Source of the DNA: Fibrobacter succinogenes
GTDB lineage: Bacteria; Fibrobacterota; Fibrobacteria; Fibrobacterales; Fibrobacteraceae
NCBI GenBank assembly: GCA_902768325.1
Contig: CACXKY010000039.1
Coordinates: 1-33,326, forward strand
Reading direction: 5' to 3'
DNA: 33,326 nucleotides
Below are positions 1 through 24,795 of this stretch, piece by piece (within the stretch, counting starts at the first letter, position 1; each line of letters begins with the position of its first letter). The position numbers and the translations under genes are program-made. Under the pieces are notes generated by a model. The model did no database searches. It saw only the letters and a list, made by a program, of their open reading frames with translations, and had not been told where the DNA came from.

Positions 1-101
1 GTAAACGCCTGGGAAAGGGTCAATCCCAGGTCATTGAATAGTTCGGTGGCTTGAGCTTTTAGCTCCTTGTCTATTCGAATGTTTGTAACCACAGTACTCA
101 T
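1..101 (-). CDS. RelB/DinJ-family antitoxin, N-terminal fragment
   Basis: Reading leftward from the ATG at 101-99, 33 codons are open to the window edge. The product begins MSTVVTNIRIDKELK and continues with a helix rich in Ala, Glu and Leu ending LGLTLSQAF. This matches the N-terminal ribbon-helix-helix segment of RelB/DinJ antitoxins, which dimerise, bind their own operator and neutralise a RelE/YafQ-type mRNA interferase. Only the DNA-binding half is inside the window; the toxin-binding C-terminus and any toxin gene would lie beyond the left edge. The start is set by a promoter-like TTTACA-17-TATATT whose -10 hexamer ends 7 bases before the ATG, and by AGAGG one base before it. GTG at codon 4 is an alternative start. 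The family call is from a short segment but a distinctive one; the presence of a toxin partner is inferred. Confidence 0.72.
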   Translation of the reverse strand, partial: MSTVVTNIRIDKELKAQATELFNDLGLTLSQAF

Positions 102-106
102 ACCTC

Positions 107-137
107 TAAATATACAACAAAAAATTCCAAATGTAAA
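107..137 (-). promoter_or_regulatory. Promoter of the antitoxin gene
   Basis: On the minus strand TTTACA (137-132) is followed by a 17-base spacer and TATATT (114-109). This is a near-consensus housekeeping promoter. Transcription would start about at the antitoxin ATG, so the mRNA may be nearly leaderless. Confidence 0.55.
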
Positions 138-166
138 GTATTTGTAGTGTTATTGTTGTGAAATGG

Positions 167-183
167 ATGCGGTGGCCCCGCAT
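167..183. repeat. Perfect inverted repeat in the intergenic region
   Basis: ATGCGG, a 5-base loop TGGCC, then CCGCAT. It lies about 65 bases upstream of the antitoxin start in the 244-base gap between divergent genes. It has no T-run, so it is not a terminator; an operator role is possible but unsupported. Confidence 0.3.
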
Positions 184-345
184 GGCGAACAGGAAAACGG
201 CTCCTGTTTATCCTATAAGACGGATTTTTCTCGAAAAATGAGCTTTTTTTAATGATATCTATCCCTAAAAAATTGCACTCTGTCAAGAAATCGGGTCTTT
301 TCTTTCCTGACGAATTTTTGCTTGATTATCTTGTATACCGAAAAC

Positions 346-1419
346 ATGATAATCTGTCGTATAAAACATTTCCTTCTTTTGTTGTGCGCCTTGCCTTTGC
401 TGGGGTTGCCCGCTTATGCCGATCCTAGTGGAATGTACATTGACTTTACGGCACAGACCGACAACGATTACGACGGCCCGCTGGTAACCAGGATTCCGCA
501 TGGGTTCTTCAATGTGGGATTGCTGGTGGAAGAAGGCGAATGGAGCGAGGGTATCAATGTCGATGAGATGCAGGGGATATCCCACGACAACGAAAACTAT
601 TACCTTACAAACCAGTGGGAGATATTCAAGGTTTCCAAGAAAACGCATAAGGTTGTCGCGAAAAATCACCTGCTCAGGGTAAACCGGTTTCTGAAGGACG
701 GTTTCTACCGCCATTTCGGAGGCATCTCGTGCTATGGGGACTACCTGTATGTTGCCACAACGGGGCGTAGGCATCCCCTGACTACGAGGAAGGCCGTCCC
801 GATAATTATTGTGTTCGATAAGGAACTGAATTTTGTCAAGTTCGGATTCTTGCCCGAGGACTTGCAGAAGGGGGCCGCCTGGGTTGCCGTGAATCCGGCA
901 AACGGACACCTGTATTCGTCGTACGGGCAGGTGGTTTACGAGTATTCCCGCGATTTCCGGAACGGGGAAACCTTGAATGCGGTTGGACACTACGTCCTGA
1001 ATTTCCGGCATGCCGACTTGAGTCCCGAGGAATGGGAAGACGCCGTGGCGCAGGGAGGCACATTCTCCGGCAACGGGGTCCTTTTTTATGTCCTTGACTT
1101 GAAACACTCCGCAAAGAACGCGAGCACGGGAATCCATGCCTTTGCCCTGCATGACAGCGAAGGTGACGAAATTGACCTCTGGGGATTAAACAACAAGGGA
1201 GAGATGCGTCCCTTTATTTCCATAAGGTACATCGGCAGCCGTGACGGGGAGCGTTTCTGGGAAATGGAAGACCTGACTTTCGGGAGGGATTCCATTGGCG
1301 AGTATATCGGATTGTTGCAACTGAGGAACGGCAAGAAGGACGAAGCACAGGTGGTCCATTACCGCCTGCTGTACGATATCAGGAAGGCTCTAGACGATCT
1401 TTCCAAAAAGTTCTTCTAG
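346..1419 (+). CDS. Exported protein of unknown function, possible beta-propeller
   Basis: I do not recognise the family. The 357-residue product starting at ATG 346 has a clear signal peptide: basic MIICRIKHF, a Leu-rich core, and a likely cut after LPAYA. The mature part is rich in aromatic residues and glycine, with blocks such as EMQGISHDNENYYLTNQW and a later EMEDLTFG. Such spaced repeats are seen in beta-propeller and YncE/SdiA-regulated-like proteins that report on ligand or substrate binding, so a periplasmic or surface propeller is a guess. An in-frame TTG at 322 would add 8 residues before the signal peptide and is less likely. TATCTT at 327-332 could be its -10 element. Its last 30 bases overlap the end of the convergent glycosyltransferase gene (1390-1419). 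Confidence 0.6.
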   Translation: MIICRIKHFLLLLCALPLLGLPAYADPSGMYIDFTAQTDNDYDGPLVTRIPHGFFNVGLLVEEGEWSEGINVDEMQGISHDNENYYLTNQWEIFKVSKKTHKVVAKNHLLRVNRFLKDGFYRHFGGISCYGDYLYVATTGRRHPLTTRKAVPIIIVFDKELNFVKFGFLPEDLQKGAAWVAVNPANGHLYSSYGQVVYEYSRDFRNGETLNAVGHYVLNFRHADLSPEEWEDAVAQGGTFSGNGVLFYVLDLKHSAKNASTGIHAFALHDSEGDEIDLWGLNNKGEMRPFISIRYIGSRDGERFWEMEDLTFGRDSIGEYIGLLQLRNGKKDEAQVVHYRLLYDIRKALDDLSKKFF

Positions 1420-2502
1420 CTTCTCGTTCTGCTTGACGGTGTCGTATTCTGCTTCCATCTTGGCGCGGGCATCAATGCCCATTTGCATGCGCAGGTTGTA
1501 GTCGCTGGCGAGGGAGTCCATGCTCTCCGCCAGTTTGTCGATGTCGCGCTGGCCAACAAGGTATCCTGTGCGCCCGTCGTCGATGATTTCGGGGAGGCCG
1601 CCACAGTACGTACCGATGCTCGCCATGGCGCTTGCGCCCGCTTCCTTGAGCACGATGAGTCCCGAGTCGCGGTCGTTGTTTTTGGCGACGATGCACGGTG
1701 CCACGAGTACGTCGTAGTTCGCGAGAAGCTCGGGCATCAGCTGTGCGGCAACGCTTCCCTTGAAAATGACTTTGTTCGCAATGCCGAGTTCTGCGGCGAG
1801 GCTTTGGAGCTGTTCTTGCAGCGGACCCTTGCCTATGAGCGTGAGTGAGGAATCCTGGTGCTTGCCTGCAATTTTTGCAAACGCGCGGATGCCGTATTCA
1901 AAGCCTTTTTTTTCAACCTGGCGGCCGATCATCAAGAACTGCGCGGGCCGTTCGGGGCGCCTGAACGGCGTGAACGCCGAGGTATCGACGCCGAGCCTAT
2001 GGACGTGAATCTTGCTTTCGGGGGCGCCCAGCTGTACGAGGCAGTCGGCGAGCTCTTGCGAGGCGGGCAACAACAGCTGTGCCGTATCGAACATTTTCTT
2101 GTAGGTGCGTTTGTAAAACAGGTAGTCAACGGGGATGTGCGGGTTCAGCAAGATGCCCACATCCACTCCGTGGAGCGTCACGATGAGCGGGACTCCGGCT
2201 TTTTTCGCGGTGGCCGAGACGAGCGCCCCGTTCGTACCGAAATGCGCGTGCACGAACCGCGAACCGCTTTCCTTTATGACGTTTACGAACTTGCCGCAGG
2301 GGAGTGCCGCATAGTAGAGCATCCGTGCGACGGGGCCGAGCGAGGTGACGTGATCGTAGGGGAAGTTTTCGCGTGCCGGGTTCAGGCCGCGGGCGATGAC
2401 GTACGGTTCGAATTTCTTAGCGTGCTTCACCTGGTCGTAGATGAAGGTCTCGCTGTAGGGCAGCCAGTTGCCTATCGCCATTGCGTACGGTATTTTCGTC
2501 AT
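1390..2502 (-). CDS. Glycosyltransferase family 4 (GT-B fold)
   Basis: A 370-residue protein with the layout of GT4 retaining glycosyltransferases, which move a sugar from a nucleotide donor to a growing envelope glycan at the cytoplasmic face. The N-terminal acceptor domain holds VHAHFGTNGALV and VTLHGVDVG; the C-terminal donor domain begins near LMIGRQVEKKGF and continues to KGP, VAPC and the conserved acidic stretch DSGLIVLKEAGA, then GGLPEIIDDGRTGYLV. It resembles colanic-acid-type transferases (WcaL/AmsK-like), but the sugar cannot be read from the sequence. ATG at 2502 is preferred over the upstream in-frame start at 2526 because homologous sequence begins there (MTKIPYAMAIGNWLPYSETF). 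It is divergent from the next glycosyltransferase, with 65 bases between starts, and its 3' end overlaps the 3' end of the exported-protein gene. Confidence 0.88.
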   Translation of the reverse strand: MTKIPYAMAIGNWLPYSETFIYDQVKHAKKFEPYVIARGLNPARENFPYDHVTSLGPVARMLYYAALPCGKFVNVIKESGSRFVHAHFGTNGALVSATAKKAGVPLIVTLHGVDVGILLNPHIPVDYLFYKRTYKKMFDTAQLLLPASQELADCLVQLGAPESKIHVHRLGVDTSAFTPFRRPERPAQFLMIGRQVEKKGFEYGIRAFAKIAGKHQDSSLTLIGKGPLQEQLQSLAAELGIANKVIFKGSVAAQLMPELLANYDVLVAPCIVAKNNDRDSGLIVLKEAGASAMASIGTYCGGLPEIIDDGRTGYLVGQRDIDKLAESMDSLASDYNLRMQMGIDARAKMEAEYDTVKQNEKLEELFGKIV

Positions 2503-2567
2503 GCTGTTAATGTAGCATTTTTGCAAGACCGCTTGGCGAAATAGATGTATATTTGCATGGGTACACC

Positions 2568-3605
2568 ATGGACAAGGTCAAAGTCTGCTTTTATCCTACT
2601 TGCGAGAACGCGACGAACCATTTCCTCGCGAATCTTGCGCGGCTCCTCCGCGACGAGGGCTCTTTCGAGTGCTCCGGTTTTTTGGACCTTGCCAAGCAAA
2701 AGAAGGGCGAGGAATTCAGGCAAGACGTGTACCATTTCAACTGGTTCGACCAGAGCCTCTCTTTTGCGTCGTTTCTGTACCGCTACTACATCTTGCTTCG
2801 CGTGATTTTTGCCCGCAAGAGGATCGTGTGGACCATCCATAACACGGTCCCGCACGGCGGCGTGCCCGCCTACAACCGCATCTTGCGCGCTCTCTTGTTG
2901 CGTTTTTCTTCCGTCATCCACATCATGAGCGAAGGGAGCCGCGAACTGCCCTATTTGCAGCCGTACTTGCACAAGGTCGAACTCGTTCCGCATGGCGACT
3001 ACTTCGGTTCTTATCCGGAATGCGATGCCGATATCCGCAAGCGCTTTAACATCGCGGAAGGGACCCCGATTGTACTTTTCCTCGGTGCGGTGCGCCCCTA
3101 CAAGAACATCGAAATCCTTTTGGACGCCTTCGATTTTGACGATGCCGCACTGCTCATTTGCGGTAACGTGCGCCCGAGGGAATATTTGAACAAGTTAACG
3201 GCTAGCGTGGCGGGCCACAAGAACGTCATCTTTGCGCCGGAATTCGTGCCGGACTCGGAACTTTCTGCCTACTTGCGTGCATCCGCTTTCTTGGTCGCGC
3301 CGTATTCGTATGAATCGGCTCTCAATTCGGGTACGGTCCTGCTCGCCTGTTCGTACGGCAAGACGGTGGTGTGCCCCGACATCGCCGGAGTCCGCGATAT
3401 CCAGGCGGCCGCTAATTGCCTGTACGCTTACCATTACGAGGGCGAAGCGGAACATACGGGCAAACTCCGGGAAACCCTGGCCCGCGCCCTTGACGATTAC
3501 CGGTCGGGTGTAATTGCCGAAAAGCAGTCCAGGGCCGTGGATTACATGCGCCGCAATTCCTGGGATGCGAACCGTTCCAAATGGTGCGGCCTTTTCAAGC
3601 GCTAG
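2568..3605 (+). CDS. Glycosyltransferase, GT4-like (GT-B fold)
   Basis: A 345-residue putative glycosyltransferase. The N-terminal half has VYHFNWFDQ and VWTIHNTVPHGG, the usual position of the acceptor-binding His. The C-terminal half has VLFLGAVRPYKNIEILLDAF (donor-domain opening typical of GT4), then VAPYSYESALNSGTVLLACSYGKTVVCPDIAG, where GT4 proteins bind the nucleotide sugar. It probably acts in the cytoplasm or at the inner face of the inner membrane on a surface glycan, alongside the adjacent GT4 and GT2-flippase genes. ATG 2568 is chosen; the in-frame TTG at 2553 has no ribosome-binding site. TATATTTG at 2548-2555 is a likely -10 element. Donor and acceptor are unknown. Confidence 0.8.
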   Translation: MDKVKVCFYPTCENATNHFLANLARLLRDEGSFECSGFLDLAKQKKGEEFRQDVYHFNWFDQSLSFASFLYRYYILLRVIFARKRIVWTIHNTVPHGGVPAYNRILRALLLRFSSVIHIMSEGSRELPYLQPYLHKVELVPHGDYFGSYPECDADIRKRFNIAEGTPIVLFLGAVRPYKNIEILLDAFDFDDAALLICGNVRPREYLNKLTASVAGHKNVIFAPEFVPDSELSAYLRASAFLVAPYSYESALNSGTVLLACSYGKTVVCPDIAGVRDIQAAANCLYAYHYEGEAEHTGKLRETLARALDDYRSGVIAEKQSRAVDYMRRNSWDANRSKWCGLFKR

Positions 3606-3632
3606 GCTCTTCAAATTTTCTATCTTTTGAAT

Positions 3633-5921
3633 ATGGAGATAAAGGCAAAGGACAGCTACCTTCCCGGTTTTACCGTATTGATTCCCTTCTACAATGAACG
3701 GAACTTTTTGCCACGGCTTTTGGAAAGCCTTTTGCAACAGACGGAACTTCCGGCGAAGCTCGTATTGATTGATAACGATTCGACAGACGATTCGGTGGAG
3801 GTGGCGAAAAAAGTCCTGGAGAATTCTCCGGTTCCCTATGAAATCCTCCATGAAGCCCGCAAGGGCAAGGCGAACGCCCTGGAACAGGGCTGCACCCGCA
3901 TCGAGACGGAATACACGGTGTGTACCGATGCCGACACGTGGTTCCCGTCCCATAGCCTAGAACTGGCCAAGAAGCTTTTCGAGGAGAATCCCGATTACAG
4001 CTGCTACCTGGCTTTCGGTGTCAACGAAGAATGGGCGCCTGACGAACAGAAGGATTTCATCAACAAGAGTTTTGCGCTGGCGGCCCATTTTAAGGACCGT
4101 TGCTTTTCCGGTGGCTACGGACACTTTTTCCGCAGCGACCCGTTCCTCAGGTGCGGCGGCTTTTCCACGTCGATATGGCCGTATACCCTGATGGACCACG
4201 AAATCATCCACCGTATGTTGAAGTACGGGAAGCGCGGTTACCATAAGGACCTGTGGTGCTATACGAGTTTCCGCCGTACGAACCGCCGCTCGGTGCGATG
4301 GAATTTTACGGAGCGATTCCTCTACCACCATCTGCCTCCTTTCTGCATGGGCTGGTTTTTCTACAAGTTCCTGAGCAGGCGTTTTGAAAAACGCAAGATT
4401 GTGGGAACGAACCTGCGAGAACAACCGTGGCAGACCGAAAAAAAGGTGGATGCGCCGAGCGATGAATTCGCTGTGGACAAGAAGTACCTGACGCAGAGTT
4501 CGCTGTTCTCCGTATTAGGCACAATCTTCAAGGTGGCGGCCCCGATCCTGATGATCGTGGTGGCGCGCGTTTTTGACAAGGAACAGTTCGGTATTTACGT
4601 TTCGGTGCAGCTGTTGATGTTGATGCTCAGCCGTGTGGCGGTCCTCGGCTTGGACAAGGGCCTTCACTGGTTTATCCCGCAAAACAGGTTGCAGGGGCGG
4701 CCCGCCTACTATGGCGTTTCGGAATCCGTGCGCCGTGCGTTACTGTTGGCTTTGGGAATTTTTGCCGTAGGGGTGGTGGCTTCGTTTTTCGGGCTACACC
4801 GGTATTCGACCAGCCTCTCCGGGTTGTCGCTGACCGATAATGCGCTGTTCTTCAGTTCGCTTTTGCCGTGGGTCGTTATCCACGTGCTTTCCGGAGCGTC
4901 CGAGGGGAATCGCAAACCGCAGTACAAGATTTTCGTGAACGATATCGCCGTGGCGACCCTCGCTCCGCTTATCGCGCTAGGGCTTTATGCTTGCGGGTTC
5001 GAAAAGCACGCCCTCCCTATAGGCCTTCTCTCTGCCAACATCATCGGTGCCGTCACCTTGATGGGGCTTGCGGCAAAGCAGTTCCCCAACATGCCCTGGT
5101 TTACCAAGAAGTCCTTGGATAAGGTATTGTTCCGCTACGCCTTGCCGCTCGGTTTTTCCGAAGTGGTGATATCGCTGTTGTTGCGCATGGACTTGTGGAT
5201 GGTGCTGCTTTTCCTCGGCCCGGGATACGCGGGTGTGTACGCCTTGATGGTGACCATCTCGAACGGGCTTCGCACCATCAGCTTGAGTTACGCTCCTATC
5301 CTTTTGCCGGTCGTCGCGGGCATGAAGCCGGAACGCTACGGCAAGGATTTGAAGGGAACGTATAGTTACTGTGTGGCGCTGGTAACACTCATCCAGCTTT
5401 CCATTGGTTTCTTTATCGTCTTGTTCCCCGATGAAATCTTGATGATCGCGGGCAAGTCGTTCGTGATTAACCCCGAGGTATTGGGAATCCTGTTGTTCGG
5501 TAACTTGCTGAACGGGTTCTTCGGGCTTTCGGGAACGGTCATCAACGGCATGGGAAACAGCCGCTTTATGCTCAAGCTGAACGTGGTGACGTTGATGTTC
5601 GCGCTGTGCATGAACTTCATCTTGATCCCGCGCATGGGCCTTGCGGGTGCAGCCCTCTCGACGGCTTCGTACCAGTTGCTGCAATGCGTATGGATGAACG
5701 TCTACCTCGTCCGCATGGGCTACTGGCCCTATAAACTTTCCCTGTTGGTGCAGGTGTTCTGGATGGTGCTTTTGCTGGTCCTCTACATTGCCGTCAATAC
5801 GAACCTCCACCTCTCTTTCTATCAAGATGTGCTGGTCTTTACCGTCGCGATTGCAGGCCTGCTTATCACGCTCTGGCGCCAGGGCCTGATGGATTCACTC
5901 TTTTCGAAGGGGAAAAAGTGA
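3633..5921 (+). CDS. Fusion of GT2 glycosyltransferase and Wzx/MATE-like polysaccharide flippase
   Basis: A 762-residue two-domain protein. Residues about 12-240 are a GT-A family 2 glycosyltransferase: VLIPFYNE at 15-22, IDNDSTDDS near 47-54, the metal-binding DAD at 99-101, and a downstream acceptor region with a WPYTLMDHEIIHRMLKYG block. A charged linker of roughly 40 residues (about 250-290) leads into residues about 290-755 with about 12-14 hydrophobic segments resembling the MOP superfamily (Wzx/RfbX) that flips undecaprenyl-linked glycans. Normally these are two proteins; the fusion could couple the last sugar addition to export. The reading frame is uninterrupted, so this is not an assembly artefact seen as overlapping ORFs. 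The start is ATG 3633, with TATCTT six bases upstream and no Shine-Dalgarno site. Its stop overlaps the ATG of lptC by one base. Confidence 0.85.
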   Translation: MEIKAKDSYLPGFTVLIPFYNERNFLPRLLESLLQQTELPAKLVLIDNDSTDDSVEVAKKVLENSPVPYEILHEARKGKANALEQGCTRIETEYTVCTDADTWFPSHSLELAKKLFEENPDYSCYLAFGVNEEWAPDEQKDFINKSFALAAHFKDRCFSGGYGHFFRSDPFLRCGGFSTSIWPYTLMDHEIIHRMLKYGKRGYHKDLWCYTSFRRTNRRSVRWNFTERFLYHHLPPFCMGWFFYKFLSRRFEKRKIVGTNLREQPWQTEKKVDAPSDEFAVDKKYLTQSSLFSVLGTIFKVAAPILMIVVARVFDKEQFGIYVSVQLLMLMLSRVAVLGLDKGLHWFIPQNRLQGRPAYYGVSESVRRALLLALGIFAVGVVASFFGLHRYSTSLSGLSLTDNALFFSSLLPWVVIHVLSGASEGNRKPQYKIFVNDIAVATLAPLIALGLYACGFEKHALPIGLLSANIIGAVTLMGLAAKQFPNMPWFTKKSLDKVLFRYALPLGFSEVVISLLLRMDLWMVLLFLGPGYAGVYALMVTISNGLRTISLSYAPILLPVVAGMKPERYGKDLKGTYSYCVALVTLIQLSIGFFIVLFPDEILMIAGKSFVINPEVLGILLFGNLLNGFFGLSGTVINGMGNSRFMLKLNVVTLMFALCMNFILIPRMGLAGAALSTASYQLLQCVWMNVYLVRMGYWPYKLSLLVQVFWMVLLLVLYIAVNTNLHLSFYQDVLVFTVAIAGLLITLWRQGLMDSLFSKGKK

Positions 5922-8840: not shown

Positions 8841-8854
8841 AAGGGGGCGGTGGT

Positions 8855-10596: not shown

Positions 10597-10604
10597 CTAG
10601 ATGC

Positions 10605-14558: not shown

Positions 14559-14564
14559 GTTAGA

Positions 14565-14570
14565 ATTATA
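14565..14570 (-). promoter_or_regulatory. -10 element of the serine hydrolase gene
   Basis: TATAAT on the minus strand, six bases upstream of the ATG at 14558. No clear -35 box and no ribosome-binding site are present, so transcription would start about at the initiation codon. Confidence 0.55.
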
Positions 14571-14615
14571 GTAAAGTTATCGTGTTAGATATTTTTTGTT
14601 GCAGTCCTCATTTGT

Positions 14616-14621
14616 TATCTT
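14616..14621 (+). promoter_or_regulatory. -10-like element of the Nudix operon
   Basis: TATCTT, seven bases before the ATG at 14629, with TTTTGT about 16 bases further upstream. No Shine-Dalgarno site lies between, which fits a leaderless transcript. Confidence 0.45.
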
Positions 14622-14628
14622 ATACCAC

Positions 14629-15168
14629 ATGGCAGAAGAACAAATCGACATTCTGAATGCGGACGGTACCCCGGCGGGTTATTCCTGCGGGCGTACGCGC
14701 GTACATGCGGAAGGCTTGTGGCACCGCACGATACATGTGTGGGCTTTTAACCGCGAAGGGAAAATCCTTTTCCAACTGCGGGCCCGCGTGAAGGAAAACA
14801 ACCCGGGACTCTTGGATACGAGCTGTGCAGGGCACATCTCCGCCGGCGATACGAGCGTCAACGCCGCCGTGCGCGAACTCCGCGAGGAACTGGGCGTGCG
14901 TAAAAGTTCGCGTGACCTCGAATACTTATTCGAGGTCAAGTACGCAACCGTACTTAACGGCGGCACCTACATCGATAACGAATTCTACGACGTTTACAGG
15001 ACGACCCTCACGGATGAGGAGGCTGCTTCCTTGGTGCCGCAGCCTGGCGAAGTCGACGGATTCGTATGGATGAGCCGTGATGAGTTCTTCGCAAAACTCA
15101 AGATGCATCCCGAAAAGTTTGTGTCGCACCCAGAAGATTTCCAGTGGCTTATGGAGAATGCCCGATGA
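14629..15168 (+). CDS. Nudix hydrolase, isopentenyl-diphosphate isomerase-like
   Basis: A 179-residue Nudix protein. The Nudix box is GHISAGDTSVNAAVRELREE followed by LGV, which keeps REL-x-EE-x-G but has Asp where the box normally has its first Glu. The surrounding pattern (WHRTIHVWAFN, LLDTSCAGHISAGD) is that of the YfcD/Idi-like subfamily that acts on nucleoside or other diphosphates. The exact substrate is unknown. The start is ATG 14629, because the sequence from MAEEQIDILNADG matches the family and the upstream in-frame start at 14596 lies before the likely promoter. It overlaps the patatin gene by four bases (ATGA). Confidence 0.88.
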   Translation: MAEEQIDILNADGTPAGYSCGRTRVHAEGLWHRTIHVWAFNREGKILFQLRARVKENNPGLLDTSCAGHISAGDTSVNAAVRELREELGVRKSSRDLEYLFEVKYATVLNGGTYIDNEFYDVYRTTLTDEEAASLVPQPGEVDGFVWMSRDEFFAKLKMHPEKFVSHPEDFQWLMENAR

Positions 15169-16034: not shown

Positions 16035-16035
16035 A

Positions 16036-16278
16036 GTGTCGAAGGCAATAACCGGTCACAAGTACCGCCATTATAAAAAAGAGACGATGGTCTATACCGT
16101 CGTCACTGCCGACGCGCTTGACTGCGAATCGGTCAAGCCGCTCGTGGTTTACCGCAGCGAGTACGAGACTCCCGACCACCCGAAGGGAACGCTCTGGGTG
16201 CGTGACCGCGAAGATTTCGAAAGCAAGGTGACGCTCGCCGACGGCACGGTCGTGGACCGCTTTACGGAAATCGGCTAA
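16036..16278 (+). CDS. DUF1653 family protein
   Basis: An 80-residue protein with the DUF1653 pattern: HKYRHYKKE near the start, VVYRSEY in the middle, then TLWVRDREDFESKV and DRF near the end. The biochemical role of the family is not known to me. The start is GTG, one base after the patatin stop and about 8 bases after GGAG. It completes a three-gene Nudix-patatin-DUF1653 operon. Confidence 0.8.
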   Translation: MSKAITGHKYRHYKKETMVYTVVTADALDCESVKPLVVYRSEYETPDHPKGTLWVRDREDFESKVTLADGTVVDRFTEIG

Positions 16279-16362
16279 CTGCAGTTCCGGCAGTCTCTTC
16301 CTAAACCATAGCTAGAAATTTTGGGCTAATTATATAGAGGTTGTTTTTTCCCAAGCTCGCTC

Positions 16363-17385: not shown

Positions 17386-19268
17386 CTTTGTCTACATTTT
17401 TTCAATTGTATATTGTATAAACTATCCAAAGTCTTATCTACATCCGGAAAACTTATATGAAATCCTTCATTATTAGGGTCTTGATAATCCCAATTATTGT
17501 GTGCATTTAACAAAGATCGTACATTCCATTTTACAGCTACTGAGTTAGATTCAGATTCCCAAAATGAATCTACGATTAATCTACATTTTTCTTTTTTTGT
17601 TTTTCCTTTAGGTATATCAACATTGACTCCTTCCCATGAACCAAATGCAAGGTTTTGATCCATATAAAGCTCCTTGTGCTTATCTTCGTGAGCCTGCAAT
17701 TTCGTATTCGTTGAAGTAAAATCATTCGTAATTTTAGTCGTCATTGCCACATTTAGAGTATATGTAATTTTTCCATCTTTTTTTTCTTCATTACTAACAC
17801 ACCAATCTATATTAATATCAGCATCAGTATGCCCAGATATGACATTTGTTAATGCAAGCATTCTTGAGGGGGTGAAATCAACATTGTATAATTTAATATA
17901 ATTATCAGTCTTTTTTAACTCCCTTCTTCCAAGAATATCAAAATACGTATTTCGGGACACATTTGGTGAATATGTGACCAAATCCTCATGCTGTATCGTA
18001 ACAGAATGAACATTTTGTTTAAAAAGAGCATTCCCCGCAAGACACCGATCAAAGTTATCTTCTTCCTCTTCTTCAAAAGGATTATAGCAATCAACTTCTT
18101 CAAGATAATGTGGTTCCGCATAGTACAGCTTTTCTGTCCATATCCAGTGCTCAGCACATCCTCCACTGGGAGAGGGATTCTTGCATTTGTAACATTTACC
18201 ATTCCATGCGAAGCAGGCTTTTGATAAGTCTTTCGGGATTGAATCCAGTGGTTGTGCAGGACACATTCCAATTCCTTTGTCAAGCTTTTCTCCTGTAGAA
18301 CAGTCCACTTCGTTGAACCAGTGGAATGTATCTACTGGAACTTGGGGGGCTTGCCACGACCAACTATTGCGACAACTATTTTCGTCAATTTTAGCCTTGC
18401 ATTTAAAGCAGTGTCCGCTGTTTTCAAAGCATGCTGACTTGATATTGTCCGGGAATTCATTAACGGGAACAGATTTGCAAAGCCCATCTTCGCTAGAAGA
18501 GCTTTCATTTTCAGAACTTGATGAACTGTAATATGGATTCTCGCCGGGATTACATGACCCCACGACACACCACCCGCGATTAGAAAGGGTCGTGTCAAAA
18601 TTTGGAATGCCCATGGCCAGGGTGCAGTTGTCGACAGAATCTTGCATAGCCGTCTCTACTTCGCTTGCATAACCGAAGCAATCTTCGTCATGTGGATACC
18701 ATTCGCCACGGCAAAACTCGTGCATTTTATCAATAGAGGGAATGCGCGGATAGGCTGCATAGAAAGCGTTTTCTAAATCATATGTGCTTACGTTGCTTGG
18801 GAAAAGATGCCGTCTTTTGAAAAAAGTTAGCAAACCGATATTTGATGTTACATAGACTGGTTGAACCATATTCTCAATTTCCATGATGTCTTTTCCGGTA
18901 AAATCTTTGGTTCCCCATGTATAACCGGAGGAGTAATATTGGTCAGAGTGGTATACAACTACAGAAGATCCGCTATAATCGCAGTAACCGTTGCCTAGAC
19001 CGGGGCACCAATAGGCCTCACTGAGGTAACATAGGTCCAAAAATTCAGGAAGGTACCCTTGTACGAAACCAAAATTGACGTAGGTGCATTTGAAGGAGCC
19101 GTCCTCATTGCATGAACAGTTGCTGACATGTATTGATTCGGGATTGGCCATGAATGGCCATACGGAATACAGGTCTTGGTGAACAGTTGAAATTTGACGA
19201 AGAGGCTCAAAATAGGTGTCCTCTATATTTTCATTGAGAACATGTCGTTGCCATTCTGCTCCTTGCAT
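17382..19268 (-). CDS. Cys-rich protein with serine linker and HExxH motif, unknown function
   Basis: A protein of about 628 residues from ATG 19268 (648 if TTG 19328 is used). In order: an N-terminal region of about 230 residues rich in Trp, Tyr and Cys; a serine linker (SSSSSENESSSSED) of the kind common in Fibrobacter exported proteins; two tandem copies of a six-Cys domain of about 65-70 residues (18065-18490); a run of Glu; and a C-terminal region with HEDKH (DNA 17676-17690), which fits an HExxH zinc-protease site such as in DUF922-like proteins. No signal peptide is visible from either start and an in-frame TAG at 19344-19346 blocks an upstream extension, so the 5' end may be lost. Base composition is AT-rich, most strongly in the C-terminal third. 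Confidence 0.55.
   Translation of the reverse strand: MQGAEWQRHVLNENIEDTYFEPLRQISTVHQDLYSVWPFMANPESIHVSNCSCNEDGSFKCTYVNFGFVQGYLPEFLDLCYLSEAYWCPGLGNGYCDYSGSSVVVYHSDQYYSSGYTWGTKDFTGKDIMEIENMVQPVYVTSNIGLLTFFKRRHLFPSNVSTYDLENAFYAAYPRIPSIDKMHEFCRGEWYPHDEDCFGYASEVETAMQDSVDNCTLAMGIPNFDTTLSNRGWCVVGSCNPGENPYYSSSSSENESSSSEDGLCKSVPVNEFPDNIKSACFENSGHCFKCKAKIDENSCRNSWSWQAPQVPVDTFHWFNEVDCSTGEKLDKGIGMCPAQPLDSIPKDLSKACFAWNGKCYKCKNPSPSGGCAEHWIWTEKLYYAEPHYLEEVDCYNPFEEEEEDNFDRCLAGNALFKQNVHSVTIQHEDLVTYSPNVSRNTYFDILGRRELKKTDNYIKLYNVDFTPSRMLALTNVISGHTDADINIDWCVSNEEKKDGKITYTLNVAMTTKITNDFTSTNTKLQAHEDKHKELYMDQNLAFGSWEGVNVDIPKGKTKKEKCRLIVDSFWESESNSVAVKWNVRSLLNAHNNWDYQDPNNEGFHISFPDVDKTLDSLYNIQLKKCRQR
18065..18490 (-). 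repeat. Tandem pair of six-Cys domains within the 17382-19268 gene
   Basis: Each unit runs Cys, a Pro-Asp/Lys stretch, ACF, a gap of six to Cys, x2, Cys, a further Cys, W-x-W, and ends in EVDC. Unit 1 begins at GLCKSVPVNEFPDN and unit 2 at GMCPAQPLDSIPKD. The equal spacing of Cys and Trp shows an internal duplication. Confidence 0.7.
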
Positions 19269-19416
19269 TCCTTGTGAAGCTGAGCGAGTGACTTTTCTGC
19301 TGATGCGAGAGATGGATGACAGGGACAAGAAAAACTTGAAGAACTAGAGGTCCCTTGCGAGTTTCGTCAATAGAGCTGATTGTAAAAAAAGTCAAACTAT
19401 TGTTGGTCGATGTTCC

Positions 19417-19424
19417 TATATTTC
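19417..19424 (+). promoter_or_regulatory. -10-like element of the Y-family polymerase gene
   Basis: TATATTTC, with TATATT ending eight bases before the ATG at 19431. There is no Shine-Dalgarno site. I see no LexA-type box in the 100 bases upstream. Confidence 0.45.
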
Positions 19425-19430
19425 ATCATC

Positions 19431-20819
19431 ATGGACTCCCGGACTTTTGCTGCCATAGACTTGAAGTCGTTCTTTGCCTCGGTGGAATGCATCCTCCGCG
19501 GTTTGGACCCGCTCAAGGCGAAGCTTGTGGTGGCCGACGAGAGCCGGACCGAGAAGACGATTTGCCTTGCGGTGACGCCCGCGCTCAAGGCTTACGGGAT
19601 TCCGGGCCGTGCCCGCCTTTTCGAGGTGAACCAGAAGGTGCGCGAAGTCAAGCGCCGTACGGGCGAGGACATCGAATTCATTATCGCGAAACCGCAGATG
19701 GCTAAATACGTGGAGTTTTCCACGAAGGTCTACAACGTTTATCTGAAATACGTCAGTGCCGACGATATCCACGCCTATTCCATAGACGAATGCTTTTTGG
19801 ACTTGACACGTTATCTGAAATTGTATAAGAAGTCGGCGCGTGAACTGGTGAAGACGATTATCCAGGACGTTTTCACGACGACGGGAATCACCGCGACAGG
19901 CGGCATCGGCACGAACCTTTACCTATGCAAGATTGCGATGGACGTGATGGCGAAGCATGTGGAAGCCGACGAAGACGGCGTGCGCATTGCGGAACTCGAC
20001 GAGATGACTTACCGCAAAAAACTCTGGTCGCACCAGCCGATTACGAGCTTTTGGCAGGTGGGCCGCGGTATTGCGGCGCGTCTTGAAAAATGCTATTTGA
20101 ACGGCGGCCGCGGTTTGCGCACGATGGGCGATATCGCGCGAGCGAGCGTCAAGAATCCCGATGCGCTTTACAAGATGCTCGGCGTGAATGCGGAGTTGCT
20201 GATTGACCATGCGTGGGGTTACGAACCGTGCACGATTGCCGATATCAAGAAGGCGAAACCGCGCTCGCAGAGCATGGGCGAGGGGCAGGTGCTGCAGGAT
20301 CCCTACAGCTTTGAGAAGGCGCGTCTCGTGGTGCGCGAGATGGTGGATACGGTCTCGATGCGCCTGGTGGAAAACGACTTTGTGGCAAAGGGCATGGTGC
20401 TTACGGTGGGTTATGACCGCGAAAACGTGGACAAGGGCATTTACCACGGCGAGACGGTCGTTGATTTTTACGGACGTACGATTCCGAAGCCCGCCCACGG
20501 CACGGCTTCCCTCGGGCATTATTCCAGTTCGCAGTCGGCGTTTGCCGAAGCGGTGATGCGCCTGTTCGACCGCATCGTGAATCCCGAATTGACAGTGCGG
20601 CGCTTGAACCTTGTGGCGATTGACGTGGTGGACGAAAGCAACGAAGGGTTCGACCTGTTTACCGACGTGCAAAAGCAGGAGCGCGAAAAGAAACGCCTGA
20701 AAGCGGAACTCCTGATCAAGAAACGCTTCGGCAAGAACGCCATCGTGAAGGGCATGGACCTACAGGATGGCGCCACTACTGTGGAAAGGAATGGACAAAT
20801 CGGGGGCCATCGAGCCTAA
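19431..20819 (+). CDS. Y-family DNA polymerase (UmuC/ImpB/YqjW-like)
   Basis: A 462-residue translesion polymerase that copies past damaged bases. The start FAAIDLKSFFASVEC contains the catalytic Asp10, and SIDECFLDL (S117-L125) carries the catalytic D119 and E120. Further on are the thumb helix-hairpin-helix region (WQVGRGIAARLEK) and the little-finger domain. It is closer to the UmuC/YqjW group than to DinB, as shown by SMGEGQVLQDPYSFEKA and LGHYSSSQSAF. The usual SOS control is expected but no LexA box is seen. A YolD-like gene lies 24 bases downstream, the normal partner of this subgroup. ATG 19431 is used rather than the open frame's first start at 19410. Confidence 0.93.
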   Translation: MDSRTFAAIDLKSFFASVECILRGLDPLKAKLVVADESRTEKTICLAVTPALKAYGIPGRARLFEVNQKVREVKRRTGEDIEFIIAKPQMAKYVEFSTKVYNVYLKYVSADDIHAYSIDECFLDLTRYLKLYKKSARELVKTIIQDVFTTTGITATGGIGTNLYLCKIAMDVMAKHVEADEDGVRIAELDEMTYRKKLWSHQPITSFWQVGRGIAARLEKCYLNGGRGLRTMGDIARASVKNPDALYKMLGVNAELLIDHAWGYEPCTIADIKKAKPRSQSMGEGQVLQDPYSFEKARLVVREMVDTVSMRLVENDFVAKGMVLTVGYDRENVDKGIYHGETVVDFYGRTIPKPAHGTASLGHYSSSQSAFAEAVMRLFDRIVNPELTVRRLNLVAIDVVDESNEGFDLFTDVQKQEREKKRLKAELLIKKRFGKNAIVKGMDLQDGATTVERNGQIGGHRA

Positions 20820-20860
20820 TTGATGATTGATAATGGATAATTGATGGTTGATGATTATAA
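20818..20860. repeat. Short degenerate direct repeats
   Basis: A run of near-repeats of TTGATGATTGATAATGG and TTGATGGTTGATGATTAT joins the polymerase stop to the YolD-like start. It looks like slippage-type or dispersed AT-rich repeat DNA. It is partly coding. Confidence 0.35.
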
Positions 20861-21089
20861 AGACATAATAAATTTGCCGTACCCGCGGGATGACTGGAAC
20901 TTCCTCATGAAGCACCCGCGCATGAGCATGGAGGACCGTGCGAAAATCTTTGCGCCGTTTGCGGCTTTGCGCGGGCACAGTACGGCGCTCGCGAAGACGG
21001 CCGAGAAAAAGCTTGATTCGGTGGAACATGAATTGACGCTGGAAGATCCGGACGCTGTGATGATGGATGAGGGTGCGGAAAATTTTTAA
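20844..21089 (+). CDS. YolD-like protein, partner of the Y-family polymerase
   Basis: An 81-residue protein containing HPRMSMEDRAKIFAPFAAL, the hallmark of the YolD-like proteins that accompany UmuC/YqjW-type polymerases and are thought to replace UmuD as an accessory factor. A short N-terminal INLPYPRDDW and an acidic C-terminus surround it. The ATG at 20844 follows a TTG at 20841, and the upstream repeats make the exact start uncertain. The polymerase-YolD pair makes a two-gene translesion-synthesis operon. Confidence 0.75.
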   Translation: MVDDYKDIINLPYPRDDWNFLMKHPRMSMEDRAKIFAPFAALRGHSTALAKTAEKKLDSVEHELTLEDPDAVMMDEGAENF

Positions 21090-21092
21090 ATT
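21087..21092 (+). promoter_or_regulatory. -10-like element of the FISUMP gene
   Basis: TAAATT, six bases before the ATG at 21099. No ribosome-binding site is seen, in line with the leaderless pattern found at other genes of the window. Confidence 0.35.
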
Positions 21093-21098
21093 TTACGC

Positions 21099-21752
21099 AT
21101 GAAGAATTTTTTGACGATTGCGGTTTCCTTTGTCCTTGCGTTTTCGGGTTTATCGGTGGCGAAGCCGGCCAAGGCGTCGAAGGCTGCGCCGAAAGCTTCC
21201 AAAGTCGTGACGAAACGTAGCGAGTTCAAGGATTCGCGCGACAAGCAGAAATACCGACTTGTGAAAATCGCGGACCGCGAATGGTTCGGCGACAACCTGA
21301 ACTTCAAAAGCGAAGGCAGTTACTGCCTGGATGACGACGATAACAATTGTATGGCCTATGGCCGCCTCTACACATGGGACGCCGCCCAGAAGGCGTGCCC
21401 TGCCGGGTTTCGCCTGCCGGCCCAGGCCGATTTCGAAAGCTTGTGGACGGCCGCCGGTGCCGACTTCAATGCGGGTTACTTGATCAAGACGGATTACGGC
21501 TGGAAGGGCGAGACGAACGGGAACGATACGCTCAAGTTTTCTGCAATGCCTGCGGGGAACCGCTTTGATGACGCGACTTACGGGAACCTTGCGAAGTTCG
21601 CCTTTTTCTGGAGCTCGGACGATTCGCTGGACGGAATCGAACCGGGCAATGCGCGCGTGTGGTACTTGACAAACAAGTCGATGGCTTTCAGCTATACCTC
21701 TAAGGCTAAAATTTTTGCGTTCTCGGTGCGCTGCGTGCGCGATGCCAAGTAG
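21099..21752 (+). CDS. FISUMP-domain exported protein
   Basis: A 217-residue member of the Fibrobacter succinogenes major paralogous domain family (FISUMP). It starts with a signal peptide (MKNFLTIAVSFVLAFSGLSVA), then a Lys-, Ala- and Ser-rich spacer to about residue 45, then the domain: YRLVKIADREWFGDNLNF, YGRLYTWDAAQKACPAGFRL, WSSDDS and a final FSVRCVRD. These are the usual landmarks (W-x-x-x-N-L, G-R-L-Y-x-W, C-P-x-G-x-x-L-P, V-R-C). The function is unknown; members are exported and numerous in Fibrobacter. The stop codon lies in the stem of its terminator. Confidence 0.93.
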   Translation: MKNFLTIAVSFVLAFSGLSVAKPAKASKAAPKASKVVTKRSEFKDSRDKQKYRLVKIADREWFGDNLNFKSEGSYCLDDDDNNCMAYGRLYTWDAAQKACPAGFRLPAQADFESLWTAAGADFNAGYLIKTDYGWKGETNGNDTLKFSAMPAGNRFDDATYGNLAKFAFFWSSDDSLDGIEPGNARVWYLTNKSMAFSYTSKAKIFAFSVRCVRDAK

Positions 21753-21771
21753 GCCTTCGTCCGGCCTTTTT
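21751..21771 (+). terminator. Terminator of the FISUMP gene
   Basis: AGGCC, a loop of seven bases, GGCCT and a run of five T. The stem is only five base pairs but GC-rich, and overlaps the stop codon. Confidence 0.5.
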
Positions 21772-21812
21772 GCTAAATTAAAACAGAAGGTCCCCTTTTT
21801 CCCGAGGTCATT

Positions 21813-22160
21813 ATGAGTCTTGAAGAAGAACGTATCCGCGAGCTCCAGCGAAAGGACAAGGAACACGATGCCCGCCTGGACATGCAGAAGGAAAAGGATT
21901 ACGAACACGACGTTCGTATCGACGCGCTCTATTCCAAGGGCCGTGAACAGGATTTTAAAATCAAGGCGCAGGCGGCCAAGGATGCGGAACACGATTTCCG
22001 TTTGAATTCCGTCGACTCCATCAACGTGCAGCAAGACGATGAACTGCACCGCCAGTCCGAAAAGGACCGCGAACACGATGCCCGCCTGGAGAAACTCGAA
22101 AAGCTTTGTGTGGATTTGACGGCCCGTATTGAGGCCCTTGAAGCCCAGCTGAAAAAGTAG
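21813..22160 (+). CDS. Coiled-coil protein with 14-residue repeats
   Basis: A 115-residue charged protein with no signal peptide. Residues 15-95 hold six repeats of exactly 14 residues. In each, an Asp-x3-Glu/Gln-His/Gln-Asp-x-Arg/Lys/Glu-Leu/Ile pattern recurs: Asp at 19, 33, 47, 61, 75 and 89, and Leu/Ile at 22, 36, 50, 64, 78 and 92. The period of two heptads indicates a long helix with polar layers in its core. A normal hydrophobic heptad tail (LCVDLTARIEALEAQLKK) ends the protein. GAGG lies before the ATG. Its stop is five bases from the ATG of the EF-G-like gene, so the two are probably co-transcribed. Function unknown. Confidence 0.75.
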   Translation: MSLEEERIRELQRKDKEHDARLDMQKEKDYEHDVRIDALYSKGREQDFKIKAQAAKDAEHDFRLNSVDSINVQQDDELHRQSEKDREHDARLEKLEKLCVDLTARIEALEAQLKK

Positions 22161-22165
22161 GTGGT

Positions 22166-24133
22166 ATGCCGCAGGCCGTACGCAACATCGCTATCCTTGC
22201 GCATGTGGATGCCGGAAAGACGACTCTTTCCGAGCGCATCTTGTTTGCAGCAGGCGAAGTGCGTAGGCCGGGCAAGGTCGAAGAAGGCCTTGCCACTATG
22301 GACTACATGCCCGAAGAAAAGGAACGCGGCATTACGATCGAAAGCGGTGTCGCGCATTTCGAATGGAAAGACACCTGGTTTAATTTTATCGATACCCCGG
22401 GCCATGTGGATTTTGGTGCCGAGGTCGACATGGCGCTTTCGGCGGTGGAAGGCGCGGTGCTTGTGGTGAGTGCGGCAAGCGGTGTGGAAACGCAGACCGT
22501 GGCCGCGTTCAAGAAGTTGCGCGAAGCGGGCGTGCGGACGCTCCTGTTCGTGAACAAGCTGGACAATCCCGACTATTCGCTTGACGATACGCTCATCCAT
22601 ATCGAAGAAGTCCTAGGCGTACGCCCGGTGCTGATGACGCTCCCGCAGTACGAAAACGGATGTATGACGGGCGTTCTCGATGTGCTCAGCCAGAGCAGGC
22701 TTGTGCATTCGGATACAGGCGAAGAGGTTGTTGATGACGGATGGAACGTGGAAGACGGCTGGGACGGTTCGCAGGAATTGAAACGGCATTATGCCGAAGC
22801 GGTTGAATTCGCGAGCAATTTTGACGACGAGATTTTGAAGCTTGCCATGGAAGGCAAGCGCGTTCCGCCCAAGATGTTGTTGCGCGGGCTCAAGGAGCTT
22901 GCCAAGGGTGACGATTACGCGCTTTGCTATGCGGGCTCTGCGATGGAAGGCTTTGGCGTGAGGAGCCTTGTGACGGCGTTGACGTTCTTCTTGCCCGATG
23001 TTCCGGAATTTGCGCCTGATGAATTAGGTCAGGTCGTTCGCCTTAGGCATTTCAAGGGCGTGGGCGAGATATCGCTGTTCCGCAGCCATACCGATATGGA
23101 ACGCAAGGCGTGGCCCGCGGGCTTTGAATTTTCACGCCTCAAGGCGAACCTGTTGCAACCCGTCGACGAAATCCGTTCGGGCGATATATATGCGATGCGC
23201 ACCCCGTTTGAAACGGAACTCGGAGAAATCCTCAAAGTGACGCCCGAAGGGCGGAGCGAACCCATACCTCAAAGCGACCAGGGGGAGCGCCCTCATTCCT
23301 CCATCCGTGACAAGTACCAGCCGCTGTTGCAGACCCGCGTGGAGTGCATCGGTTCTGAAGACTACGCCCATGTGGAAAAGAGCCTCGCAACGCTTAGCCG
23401 TATGGACCCTTCGTTCCGCGTGCAAAAAGACGATGGTGGTTTTTGGTATTTGCATACCGTAGGTGAAGTTCAGTTAGAAGTCTTGCTCGCCCGCCTCAAG
23501 CGTGAATTCGGTTGCGAAGTGAAGGCGGGATCCCCGGAAGTCCGCTGGCAGGAACGCCTCTGCCGTAATGTGGGCCCCGTCGAAAATACGTTCCAGTTCG
23601 GCCCGCACAAGATTTCGATAAAGCTTTCTGCAACGCCGCTCGATAGCGATGCGCATGATATCCGTCTTTCCGCTGAATTCCTGGAAACCGCTCCCCGCGA
23701 GATTCTGGCGGGCGTTCGCTCGGCGCTGTTGGAATCGACCGAAGTGGGAATCTTGGGCAAGGGCCCGCTTGTGGGTGTGCGTTTTGAAGTCCACGAATTC
23801 ACCTGGACCGAGGGCGCCTTGCCGCCGATGATCAAGAAGGCATGCGCCGATGCGGTGACGAAACTCATCAAGCCTGCCGATGTGGAACTCTACGAACCGG
23901 TCATGGAACTTTCGCTGGAATGCCCCGTGAATTTTGCGGGCCTCGTGACGGGAGATATCCAGGCGCGCGACGGCAAGGTAAAGGAAATCGGCGGTGACGG
24001 CAAGACGCACTTCTTGAAGGCCGATATTCCGCTGCGCAAGATTTTCGGCTACGCTACGGGAGTCCGCAGCATCAGCAAGGGCACGGCTCTTTACAGCATG
24101 AAGTTGCTCGGGTATCGTCCGGCAACAATTTGA
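22166..24133 (+). CDS. EF-G/TetM-like translational GTPase
   Basis: A 655-residue ribosomal GTPase. The G domain has AHVDAGKTT, switch I with ERGITIES, DTPGH (G3) and NKLD (G4). Domains II, III, IV and V follow in order; the HTVGEVQLEVLLARLKREFG block is domain III, SPEVRWQERL opens domain IV and GYATGVRSISKGT closes domain V. It is shorter than canonical EF-G (about 700), and the domain IV stretch lacks the usual KKQSGGRGQ loop, reading instead like the ribosomal protection proteins (TetM/TetO type). It could be an EF-G paralogue with a special role or a ribosome-protection factor; the sequence alone does not decide. A canonical fusA is presumably elsewhere. It lies 14 bases before the acetyltransferase. 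Confidence 0.85.
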   Translation: MPQAVRNIAILAHVDAGKTTLSERILFAAGEVRRPGKVEEGLATMDYMPEEKERGITIESGVAHFEWKDTWFNFIDTPGHVDFGAEVDMALSAVEGAVLVVSAASGVETQTVAAFKKLREAGVRTLLFVNKLDNPDYSLDDTLIHIEEVLGVRPVLMTLPQYENGCMTGVLDVLSQSRLVHSDTGEEVVDDGWNVEDGWDGSQELKRHYAEAVEFASNFDDEILKLAMEGKRVPPKMLLRGLKELAKGDDYALCYAGSAMEGFGVRSLVTALTFFLPDVPEFAPDELGQVVRLRHFKGVGEISLFRSHTDMERKAWPAGFEFSRLKANLLQPVDEIRSGDIYAMRTPFETELGEILKVTPEGRSEPIPQSDQGERPHSSIRDKYQPLLQTRVECIGSEDYAHVEKSLATLSRMDPSFRVQKDDGGFWYLHTVGEVQLEVLLARLKREFGCEVKAGSPEVRWQERLCRNVGPVENTFQFGPHKISIKLSATPLDSDAHDIRLSAEFLETAPREILAGVRSALLESTEVGILGKGPLVGVRFEVHEFTWTEGALPPMIKKACADAVTKLIKPADVELYEPVMELSLECPVNFAGLVTGDIQARDGKVKEIGGDGKTHFLKADIPLRKIFGYATGVRSISKGTALYSMKLLGYRPATI

Positions 24134-24135
24134 TA

Positions 24136-24143
24136 TATATTTA
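24136..24143 (+). promoter_or_regulatory. -10-like element of the acetyltransferase gene
   Basis: TATATTTA, with TATATT ending six bases before the ATG at 24148. It overlaps the region just after the GTPase stop, so this gene may have its own promoter besides read-through. The only weak ribosome-binding match is AGGG. Confidence 0.45.
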
Positions 24144-24147
24144 GGGT

Positions 24148-24795
24148 ATGAACGAAAAAATCCCTAATCCAAATACGATTCATCCCATCGCGGGCTATGA
24201 CAAGGAAATCTACGTCAAGCCGACTATCAAGAATCCGAACATCATCGTCGGGGATTTTACCTATATCGCGGACTCGGAATTCGAAAGCCATGTGACGCAC
24301 CATTACGACTTTATCGGCGACAAGCTCATCATCGGAAAATTCTGCCAGATTGCCGCGGGCGTAGAATTTGTGATGAATGGCGCAAACCACCAGATGAATG
24401 CCGTTTCCACATTCCCGTTCTATACGCTTGAAGGCTGGGACATGAAGCCGCCTGCTGCAAGCGATATGCCGTTCAAGGGCGATACCGTTATCGGGAACGA
24501 CGTGTGGATCGGACAGAATGCGACAATCTTGCCTGGCGTGCATATTGGTGACGGCGCGATTATCGGCGCGAACAGCGTTGTCGCTAGCGACGTGGAACCT
24601 TATTCGATTGTCGTCGGGAACCCGGTCAAGTTGATCCGCTACCGCTTTGATGGCGAACTGACTTCGCTCCTTTTGAAATTCAAGTGGTGGGACAAGCCCG
24701 TCGAAGAAATCAATGCGTTGATTCCTATTCTCACGAACAGCGATTTGGAATTCGTAAAAAACAAAATTCGAGAATTAACAGAAAAGGTGGTTTAA
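24148..24795 (+). CDS. Vat/CatB-like O-acetyltransferase (left-handed beta helix)
   Basis: A 215-residue acyltransferase of the xenobiotic acetyltransferase family, which acetylates hydroxyls with acetyl-CoA. It shows hexapeptide-repeat turns ([55 protein letters not shown]), the catalytic-His region [15 protein letters not shown], and the C-terminal [11 protein letters not shown] that marks the Vat/CatB group. Members include streptogramin A and chloramphenicol acetyltransferases, but many genomic homologues have other or unknown substrates. It stands right after an EF-G/TetM-like gene. The stop codon lies in the hairpin of the terminator. Confidence 0.9.

Follow-up and report, generated by a model that had tools for sequence, protein, structure and literature searches.

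We describe a hexamer of the TATATT type that recurs 6 to 8 bases ahead of start codons in Fibrobacter succinogenes, a member of a gut and rumen lineage that is known for cellulose degradation and is related to Bacteroidetes. Since genes with the hexamer at this distance nearly always lack a Shine-Dalgarno (SD) sequence, it is likely that their mRNAs have the start codon at the very 5' end, a type of expression most familiar from Deinococcus and Actinobacteria. We consider it highly probable, judging from the sequence patterns, that these hexamer-locked, mostly SD-less genes, which amount to about a fifth of the sampled genes preceded by a gap, would be read from leaderless mRNAs. The analysis started from a 33,326-nucleotide stretch (hereinafter, the window), which is contig 39 of the 231 that make up a 2.91 Mb draft genome and for which a preliminary description had listed seven such hexamers with spacings of 7, 6, 6, 7, 8, 6 and 6 bases. 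Direct reading and a script recovered all seven exactly as claimed, along with an eighth, on the reverse strand at 2509-2514, that had been overlooked. Among 20 starts in the window, 8 have a TAnnnT that begins at -14 to -12. When each upstream region was resampled under a first-order Markov model, the expectation was 1.45 +- 1.13 and none of the 5000 draws reached 8; the 20 starts were chosen by eye as possibly transcript-leading, and one of them (17385) actually overlaps the preceding gene. The contrast with SD-led genes that had also been proposed holds: AGGA, GGAG or GAGG at -17 to -4 is found in none of the 8 hexamer starts vs 6 of the remaining 12. Among these 6 are all three so-called esterase genes, only two of which have Pfam alpha/beta-hydrolase matches, both weak.

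For a view of the genome, 40 stretches were combined with the window into a sample of 830,326 bases with 624 genes, called with our own gene caller, which relies on codon usage and start codon type and never uses upstream signals; in a benchmark on one 50 kb Escherichia coli stretch with 45 annotated genes, it recovered 38 of the 45 stops and placed 28 of these 38 starts identically. In this sample, the frequency of the hexamer is highest at -13/-12 relative to starts that follow a gap. With the expectation for each gene class taken from positions -60 to -18 of the same regions, TAnnnT at -14 to -12 was found 43 times among 154 divergent starts (13.7 expected), 34 times among the 204 co-directional starts that lie at least 40 bases from the preceding gene (13.1 expected), and 17 times among the 90 that lie 10-39 bases from it (3.9 expected). 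At operon-internal starts (gap below 10 bases), the count is at background (3 in 137, 2.9 expected). When all three-letter patterns were scanned at -13/-12 of the 424 upstream regions, SD fragments and TAnnnT came out on top, the latter with 74 occurrences vs 19.9, and the highest of seven control patterns of similar composition was ATnnnT at -12, with 19 vs 10.7. The full TATATT was found 18 times vs 2.6 at these positions, and the runner-up among the permutations of its letters, 8 times vs 1.9. Among the 358 divergent starts and starts with a gap of at least 40 bases, the hexamer occurs without an SD in 75, an SD without the hexamer in 94, neither in 188 and both in a single one, so that an SD accompanies 1 of the 76 adjacent hexamers. 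Allowing for an in-frame ATG or GTG within 60 bases of the start, TAnnTT at -14 to -12 is found for 104 of the 424 gap-preceded genes, as opposed to 5 and 8 in the other two frames, and the predicted leaderless share of such genes in the sampled genome is, on this count, near 20%.

The same picture emerges when gene calls are left aside. Over the 830 kb, TATATT is followed by ATG after gaps of 6, 7 and 8 bases in 22, 22 and 14 cases, against a mean of 5.2 elsewhere. At these gaps, 46 of the 58 pairs open a frame of at least 80 codons, with an SD in 1 of the 46. At gaps of 16-18, 4 of 14 pairs open a frame and, at gaps of 26-28, 11 of 13, of which 7 have an SD. The corresponding numbers for gaps of 6-8 are 0 of 3 in E. 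coli and 7 of 51 in 18 Firmicutes loci, the long ones of a control set of 52 chosen by record title. The gene-start count made with the same script yields no peak in E. coli (1 found vs 4.5 expected) or in Firmicutes (15 vs 49.1), and yields 11 vs 2.1 for the MP1 plasmid of Deinococcus radiodurans and 46 vs 13.6 for named Fibrobacter loci (L257-L275, including L264, which is labelled Clostridiales).

The phyletic spread of the pattern was assessed by whole-genome counts of TATATT-N6-8-ATG (near) and TATATT-N16-18-ATG (far) in 150 genomes of the phylum, with significance set at P<1e-3. The genome under study has 184 near vs 40 far occurrences. For the genus, the pooled near/far ratio is 2.39 and all 67 of 67 genomes are significant; for the rest of the family (f1, which we infer to be the Fibrobacter family), the ratio is 2.02, with 24 of 27 genomes significant. 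In other families of the class, the values are 6.67 (f2; 2 of 2 genomes), 2.18 (f3; 5 of 10), 2.67 (f4; 0 of 2, with few sites) and 1.25 (f5; 0 of 1). Outside the class, the ratio ranges from 1.00 to 1.35 by family and 2 of 33 genomes are significant, apart from genus g21 of family f9 (G063, G066, G069, G080, G083, G101, G102 and G115), in which the ratio is 1.94 and 7 of 8 genomes are significant; given that none of the 16 genomes from other genera of f9 has the excess, it may represent either an independent gain or retention in g21. TAnnnT is frequent in AT-rich intergenic DNA, at about 10 per position in the 424 upstream regions, and might accordingly be expected to occur by chance ahead of some starts, but the window resampling, the peak in the sampled genome and the excess in every sampled genome of the genus refute this explanation, to which we assign a negligible probability.

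The hexamer is very likely a promoter, a role for which the preliminary description had cited the TATATT ahead of tRNA-Val in the window, because tRNA genes carry the same box. Across 13 tRNA genes from this and other Fibrobacter DNA, TATATT lies within 60 bases upstream of 8, vs 21 of 424 gene stretches at -120 to -61; for the looser TAnnTT, the numbers are 11 of 13 vs 129 of 424. The box also stands farther upstream of SD-led genes, with TAnnTT at -45 to -26 in 47 of 121, vs 28 of 121 at -110 to -71, a span twice as long. One box at different distances from tRNA genes, start-adjacent genes and SD-led genes points to a promoter rather than a ribosome-binding signal. These data bear directly on the alternative under which the A/U-rich stretch belongs to a longer leader and acts in translation, either as an unstructured site or as one bound by ribosomal protein S1, as proposed for Bacteroidetes. 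This possibility draws on the T-rich upstream regions of non-SD genes, on the description of non-canonical AT-rich ribosome-binding sites (RBSs) in the Fibrobacteres-Chlorobi-Bacteroidetes (FCB) group in the cited part of PMC9581028, and on the A/T bias near -20 to -10 that is deemed ambiguous between a Pribnow box and an S1 site in the cited part of PMC5397173. General A/T-richness, however, would not account for a specific hexamer whose position varies by about one base, its presence at tRNA genes, its greater density at -45 to -26 of SD-led genes, or its background frequency at operon-internal starts, and we regard a translation signal as improbable.

Orthologous genes provide a further line of evidence. 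For five window genes (GT2-flippase, serine hydrolase, Nudix hydrolase, Y-family polymerase and acetyltransferase), we compared 109 orthologous upstream regions from other genomes of the genus, leaving out the five genes of the window itself. The loci surveyed, own genes included, were the best-scoring 30 of 41 matches for Nudix, 30 of 39 for the Y-polymerase and 30 of 41 for the serine hydrolase (L211 was dropped, with no start nearby), the first 20 of 30 for the acetyltransferase, and, for the flippase, the first 5 of 30, whose matches cover almost the entire protein. The hexamer is found at -14 to -12 in 63 of the 109 regions (62 without and 1 with an SD), compared to 22 of 654 control windows farther up. 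By gene, it is present in 3 of 4 full-length flippase orthologues (in the fourth, it lies at -15), 21 of 28 serine hydrolases, 13 of 29 Nudix genes (10 others have an SD instead and 6 neither), 17 of 29 Y-polymerases, six of which have GTG starts, and 9 of 19 acetyltransferases, the other 10 of which have an SD. In most of these groups, the flanks have largely diverged, as judged by eye. Together with the peak in the sampled genome and the excess in all sampled genomes of the genus, this footprinting bears out the genome-wide enrichment in SD-less genes at this distance that the preliminary description had set as a test. It also weighs on the possibility that the -10 boxes are genuine and the start codons misannotated, with transcripts beginning elsewhere or translation starting farther inside the gene. 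Start calls are indeed predictions, and those of orthologues differ by up to 12 bases. Nevertheless, the hexamer tracks the position of the start codon across shifts of 3 to 12 bases in the Y-polymerase, acetyltransferase and Nudix groups and where the start is GTG in the six Y-polymerases; in the latter family (n=18, own gene included), the standard deviation of its position is 0.65 bases relative to the start codon vs 4.94 relative to the homologous first residue. Moreover, TAnnTT precedes 105 of 827 in-frame ATG or GTG codons near starts vs 12 of 582 out-of-frame ones. A misplaced start is, in our estimate, a very remote explanation. For the Y-polymerase itself, for which the gene caller gave 19410, the orthologues favour 19431, the start adopted in the preliminary description.

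Alignments of two of these groups suggest how the two kinds of starts may be related. Among serine hydrolases, L197 and L208 differ from L198 and L207 by the presence or absence of about ten SD-holding bases before the ATG, with the -10 box kept, and the Nudix genes L158, L160, L162 and L164 differ from L155 in the same manner. We read these differences as putative switches between leaderless and SD-led states, either direction being possible. In the scheme that we propose, the hexamer would serve as the -10 box of the housekeeping sigma factor and, from its position 6-8 bases upstream, would set the start of RNA polymerase at the A of the start codon, in keeping with the usual 6-8 base rule for the start site; the ribosome would then load on the leaderless mRNA by reading the 5'-terminal AUG or GUG. 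A leaderless-type promoter would lack a -35 box and consist of an A/T tract of 6-7 bases (mostly T), often a C, the hexamer and, in many cases, a T or TG next to it downstream. At SD-led genes, the same box would leave a leader of about 14-33 bases, a -35 box would usually be added at tRNA genes, and genes would pass between states via gain or loss of about ten SD-holding bases between the retained -10 box and the start codon. More generally, we find it reasonably probable that the class Fibrobacteria has a two-state start system, in which a single -10 box is placed either 6-8 bases from the start, with the A/T tract and C (leaderless), or ten or so bases or more farther away with an SD cassette, with evolutionary toggling by gain and loss of the cassette, and in which the leaderless promoter fits into gaps of 9-40 bases.

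The proposed architecture derives from leaderless-type sites aligned on the hexamer, 90 with TAnnnT and 82 with TAnnTT. The fifth place of the hexamer is T in 0.91 of the 90 sites. An A/T tract occupies positions -8 to -2 relative to the hexamer, with an A/T frequency of 0.98 at -4 (T, 0.77), followed by C at -1 in 0.48; after the hexamer, the frequency of T at the seventh place is 0.61 and that of G at the eighth, 0.39. The tract is weaker at the sites of SD genes (T at -4, 0.53). We rejected the idea that the tract is nothing but the terminator U-run of a neighbouring gene upstream, given that divergent genes have it as well (T at -4, 0.82; n=39). An E. coli-type -35 box was likewise rejected at leaderless-type sites, where TTGACA-like sequences (at most 2 mismatches, 16-18 bases before the hexamer) occur at the level of shuffled sequence (9 of 82 vs 10.0 +- 2.9); in the same test, SD-gene sites scored 15 of 47, control sites 3 of 28 and tRNA sites 8 of 11. 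A Bacteroidetes-type -33 TTTG box was rejected too: TTG, scored in place of TTTG itself, is found at -21 and -20 of the hexamer in 3 and 3 of the 90 sites, as at other offsets. The uneven distribution of the -35 box is one of two observations that would fit reading of the -35-less promoters by a minority alternative sigma factor rather than the housekeeping one, a possibility that is compatible with leaderless mRNAs. The other is the sigma complement of the genome, with six sigma region-2 matches, including three short RpoD-like proteins (L001, L002 and L004; 281-312 aa with starts chosen by us), in none of which a match to Pfam region 1.1 was detected; L001 also lacks matches to regions 1.2 and 3. 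Conversely, the identical hexamer is found at tRNA genes, which are housekeeping genes, and a fifth of the gap-preceded genes would be a broad set for an alternative sigma factor. We regard such a factor as unlikely.

Several observations weigh against leaderless reading, or against its generality. Neither an SD nor an adjacent hexamer is found in 188 of the 358 gap-preceded genes, of which errors in start calling probably explain just part, and 46 of the 109 orthologous regions are without the hexamer (27 with an SD only and 19 with neither). The hexamer position falls within the SD window, so the mutual exclusion of the two signals is in part mere occupancy. All starts come from our own caller and about a quarter might be wrong, which should dilute the peak rather than create it. 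The matrix used to scan for promoters was trained on start-adjacent sites; hence, of its two results, best matches at -110 to -26 in 56 of 59 SD genes with a match and at -15 to -11 in 81 of 155 such non-SD genes, the former alone is independent. In D. radiodurans, the in-frame vs out-of-frame comparison is not significant (P=0.35), and the MP1 peak consists of TAnnnT with 0 TAnnTT. In G005 alone (200 kb), the signal is weak, with an in-frame count for TAnnnT of 16 of 160 vs 6 of 126 (P=0.12; for TAnnTT, P=0.026). Among members of the class, the gene-level excess is marginal in G034 (15 of 213 vs 2 of 116, P=0.039), not significant in the thin samples of G028 and G031, as well as in that of G040 from outside the class, and opposite in G026 (0 of 63 vs 5 of 70, P=0.06, also a thin sample). 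With gene-level samples this thin for G026, G028, G031 and G040, the whole-genome pattern counts were used instead; for G026, these give 35 near vs 6 far.

The hexamers of the window are listed in Table 1. The RelB assignment of the antitoxin rests on a Pfam match from the 33 residues of the protein that lie inside the window, and its GAGG is just one base ahead of the ATG. The Nudix and serine hydrolase genes are divergent, with 70 bp between them. The likely promoter of the acetyltransferase gene (24128-24148) sits in a gap of 14 bases, the upstream gene ending at 24133, and the A/T-rich stretch preceding the box overlaps the stop codon of that gene; operon calls based on spacing would accordingly miss this promoter. 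For the Y-polymerase, the nearest relatives outside Fibrobacter among the matches listed come mostly from Lachnospiraceae and other Clostridia (L276-L336; 52-62% identity), which suggests horizontal transfer of the gene. Of the best 19 named records with the most similar Y-polymerases, 18 are Fibrobacter metagenome-assembled genomes and the remaining one, L264, is a contig labelled Clostridiales Firm_05 that encodes a Y-polymerase 86% identical to that of the window; this is probably a misbinned Fibrobacter contig.

Table 1. TATATT-type hexamers upstream of genes in the window
Hexamer	Positions	Strand	Downstream gene	Gene start or extent	Bases between hexamer and gene	First T relative to start	Remarks
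TATATT	109-114	-	RelB-type antitoxin	ATG at 101	7	-13	
TACATT	2509-2514	-	Group-1 glycosyltransferase (Pfam)	ATG at 2502	6	-12	
TATCTT	3621-3626	+	GT2-flippase	3633-5921	6	-12	
TATAAT	14565-14570	-	Serine hydrolase (Pfam Beta-lactamase)	14558-13467	6	-12	
TATCTT	14616-14621	+	Nudix hydrolase (Pfam)	14629-15168	7	-13	
TATATT	19417-19422	+	Y-family polymerase (Pfam)	19431-20819	8	-14	
TAAATT	21087-21092	+	Fib_succ_major (FISUMP) protein (Pfam)	21099-21752	6	-12	
TATATT	24136-24141	+	Hexapeptide acetyltransferase (Pfam)	24148-24795	6	-12	
TATATT	33125-33130	-	tRNA-Val	33112-33037	12		Same box at a non-coding gene

If this interpretation is correct, gene finders that rely on SD sequences could misplace Fibrobacter starts, and operon calls based on distance would miss promoters within gaps of 9-40 bases. 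With dozens of sequenced species and orthologues in differing states, the group also offers a ready system for the study of switching between leaderless and SD-led reading and of the advantage of each state. The preliminary description had deemed that broad use of leaderless initiation here would be notable. This judgement stands with one reservation: many bacteria are already known, or predicted, to employ leaderless mRNAs, and what looks new here is the clade and the promoter architecture. Judging by titles and abstract openings, we found no study of leaderless mRNAs, SD sequences, start sites or sigma factors on this subject in the Fibrobacter literature. The word Fibrobacter is absent from the main text of PMC3160421, PMC5397173, PMC12340547 and PMC9581028.

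In the survey of 953 bacterial genomes by Zheng et al. 2011 (PMC3160421), a TA-like signal located some 12 bases ahead of the start is taken, in the sections cited here, as a mark of leaderless genes; the Fibrobacter hexamer resembles it in position and in that SD and TA signals replace each other between related genomes. Fibrobacteres are not in that paper's list of groups with leaderless genes, and the 953 genomes may or may not include Fibrobacter. As to the SD-led state, the class Fibrobacteria is assigned an anti-SD of the CCUCC type in the relevant part of PMC10783764. In Deinococcus-Thermus, leaderless genes have a -10 motif TANNNT adjoining the open reading frame (ORF) and account for about 30% of ORFs on average, according to the cited sections of Zhong et al. 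2025 (PMC12340547). The two systems share a -10 box a few bases before the ORF at a specific spacing, mostly no classical -35 box, and coexisting RBS-led genes. They differ in that the Deinococcus-Thermus case was tested with reporters and transcriptomes, whereas that of Fibrobacter is known from sequence alone, and in that the Fibrobacter box, in another phylum, is TATATT-like, with T in the fifth place and an A/T tract and C before it.

In Bacteroidetes, the portions of PMC7366714 and PMC9723704 used here describe a housekeeping promoter with a -7 box TAnnTTTG, similar to which many Fibrobacter boxes read TATATTTG; the box of Flavobacterium psychrophilum lies at -12 to -5 of the start site, and, with the same spacing, transcription in Fibrobacter would start on the ATG. 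By the same sources, 5' untranslated regions shorter than 10 nt make up about 3.7% in Bacteroides thetaiotaomicron and leaderless transcripts 5.5% in F. psychrophilum. Fibrobacter would join the groups with wide use of leaderless mRNAs; in Bacteroidetes, the mapped transcripts show their rarity (3.7-5.5%). Unlike Bacteroidetes, as portrayed there, Fibrobacter also uses SD sequences, and TTGACA-like -35 boxes are frequent at its tRNA genes. A parallel to replacement of the -35 box by an A/T-rich sequence upstream of the -10 box is found in the sigma70 promoters of Campylobacter jejuni, as outlined in the cited part of PMC3656092. Unlike these, the Fibrobacter sites have no TGx extension and no clear periodicity, which was judged informally, with no formal test; their tract is one strong A/T block adjoining the hexamer at -8 to -2, with slight rises farther up.

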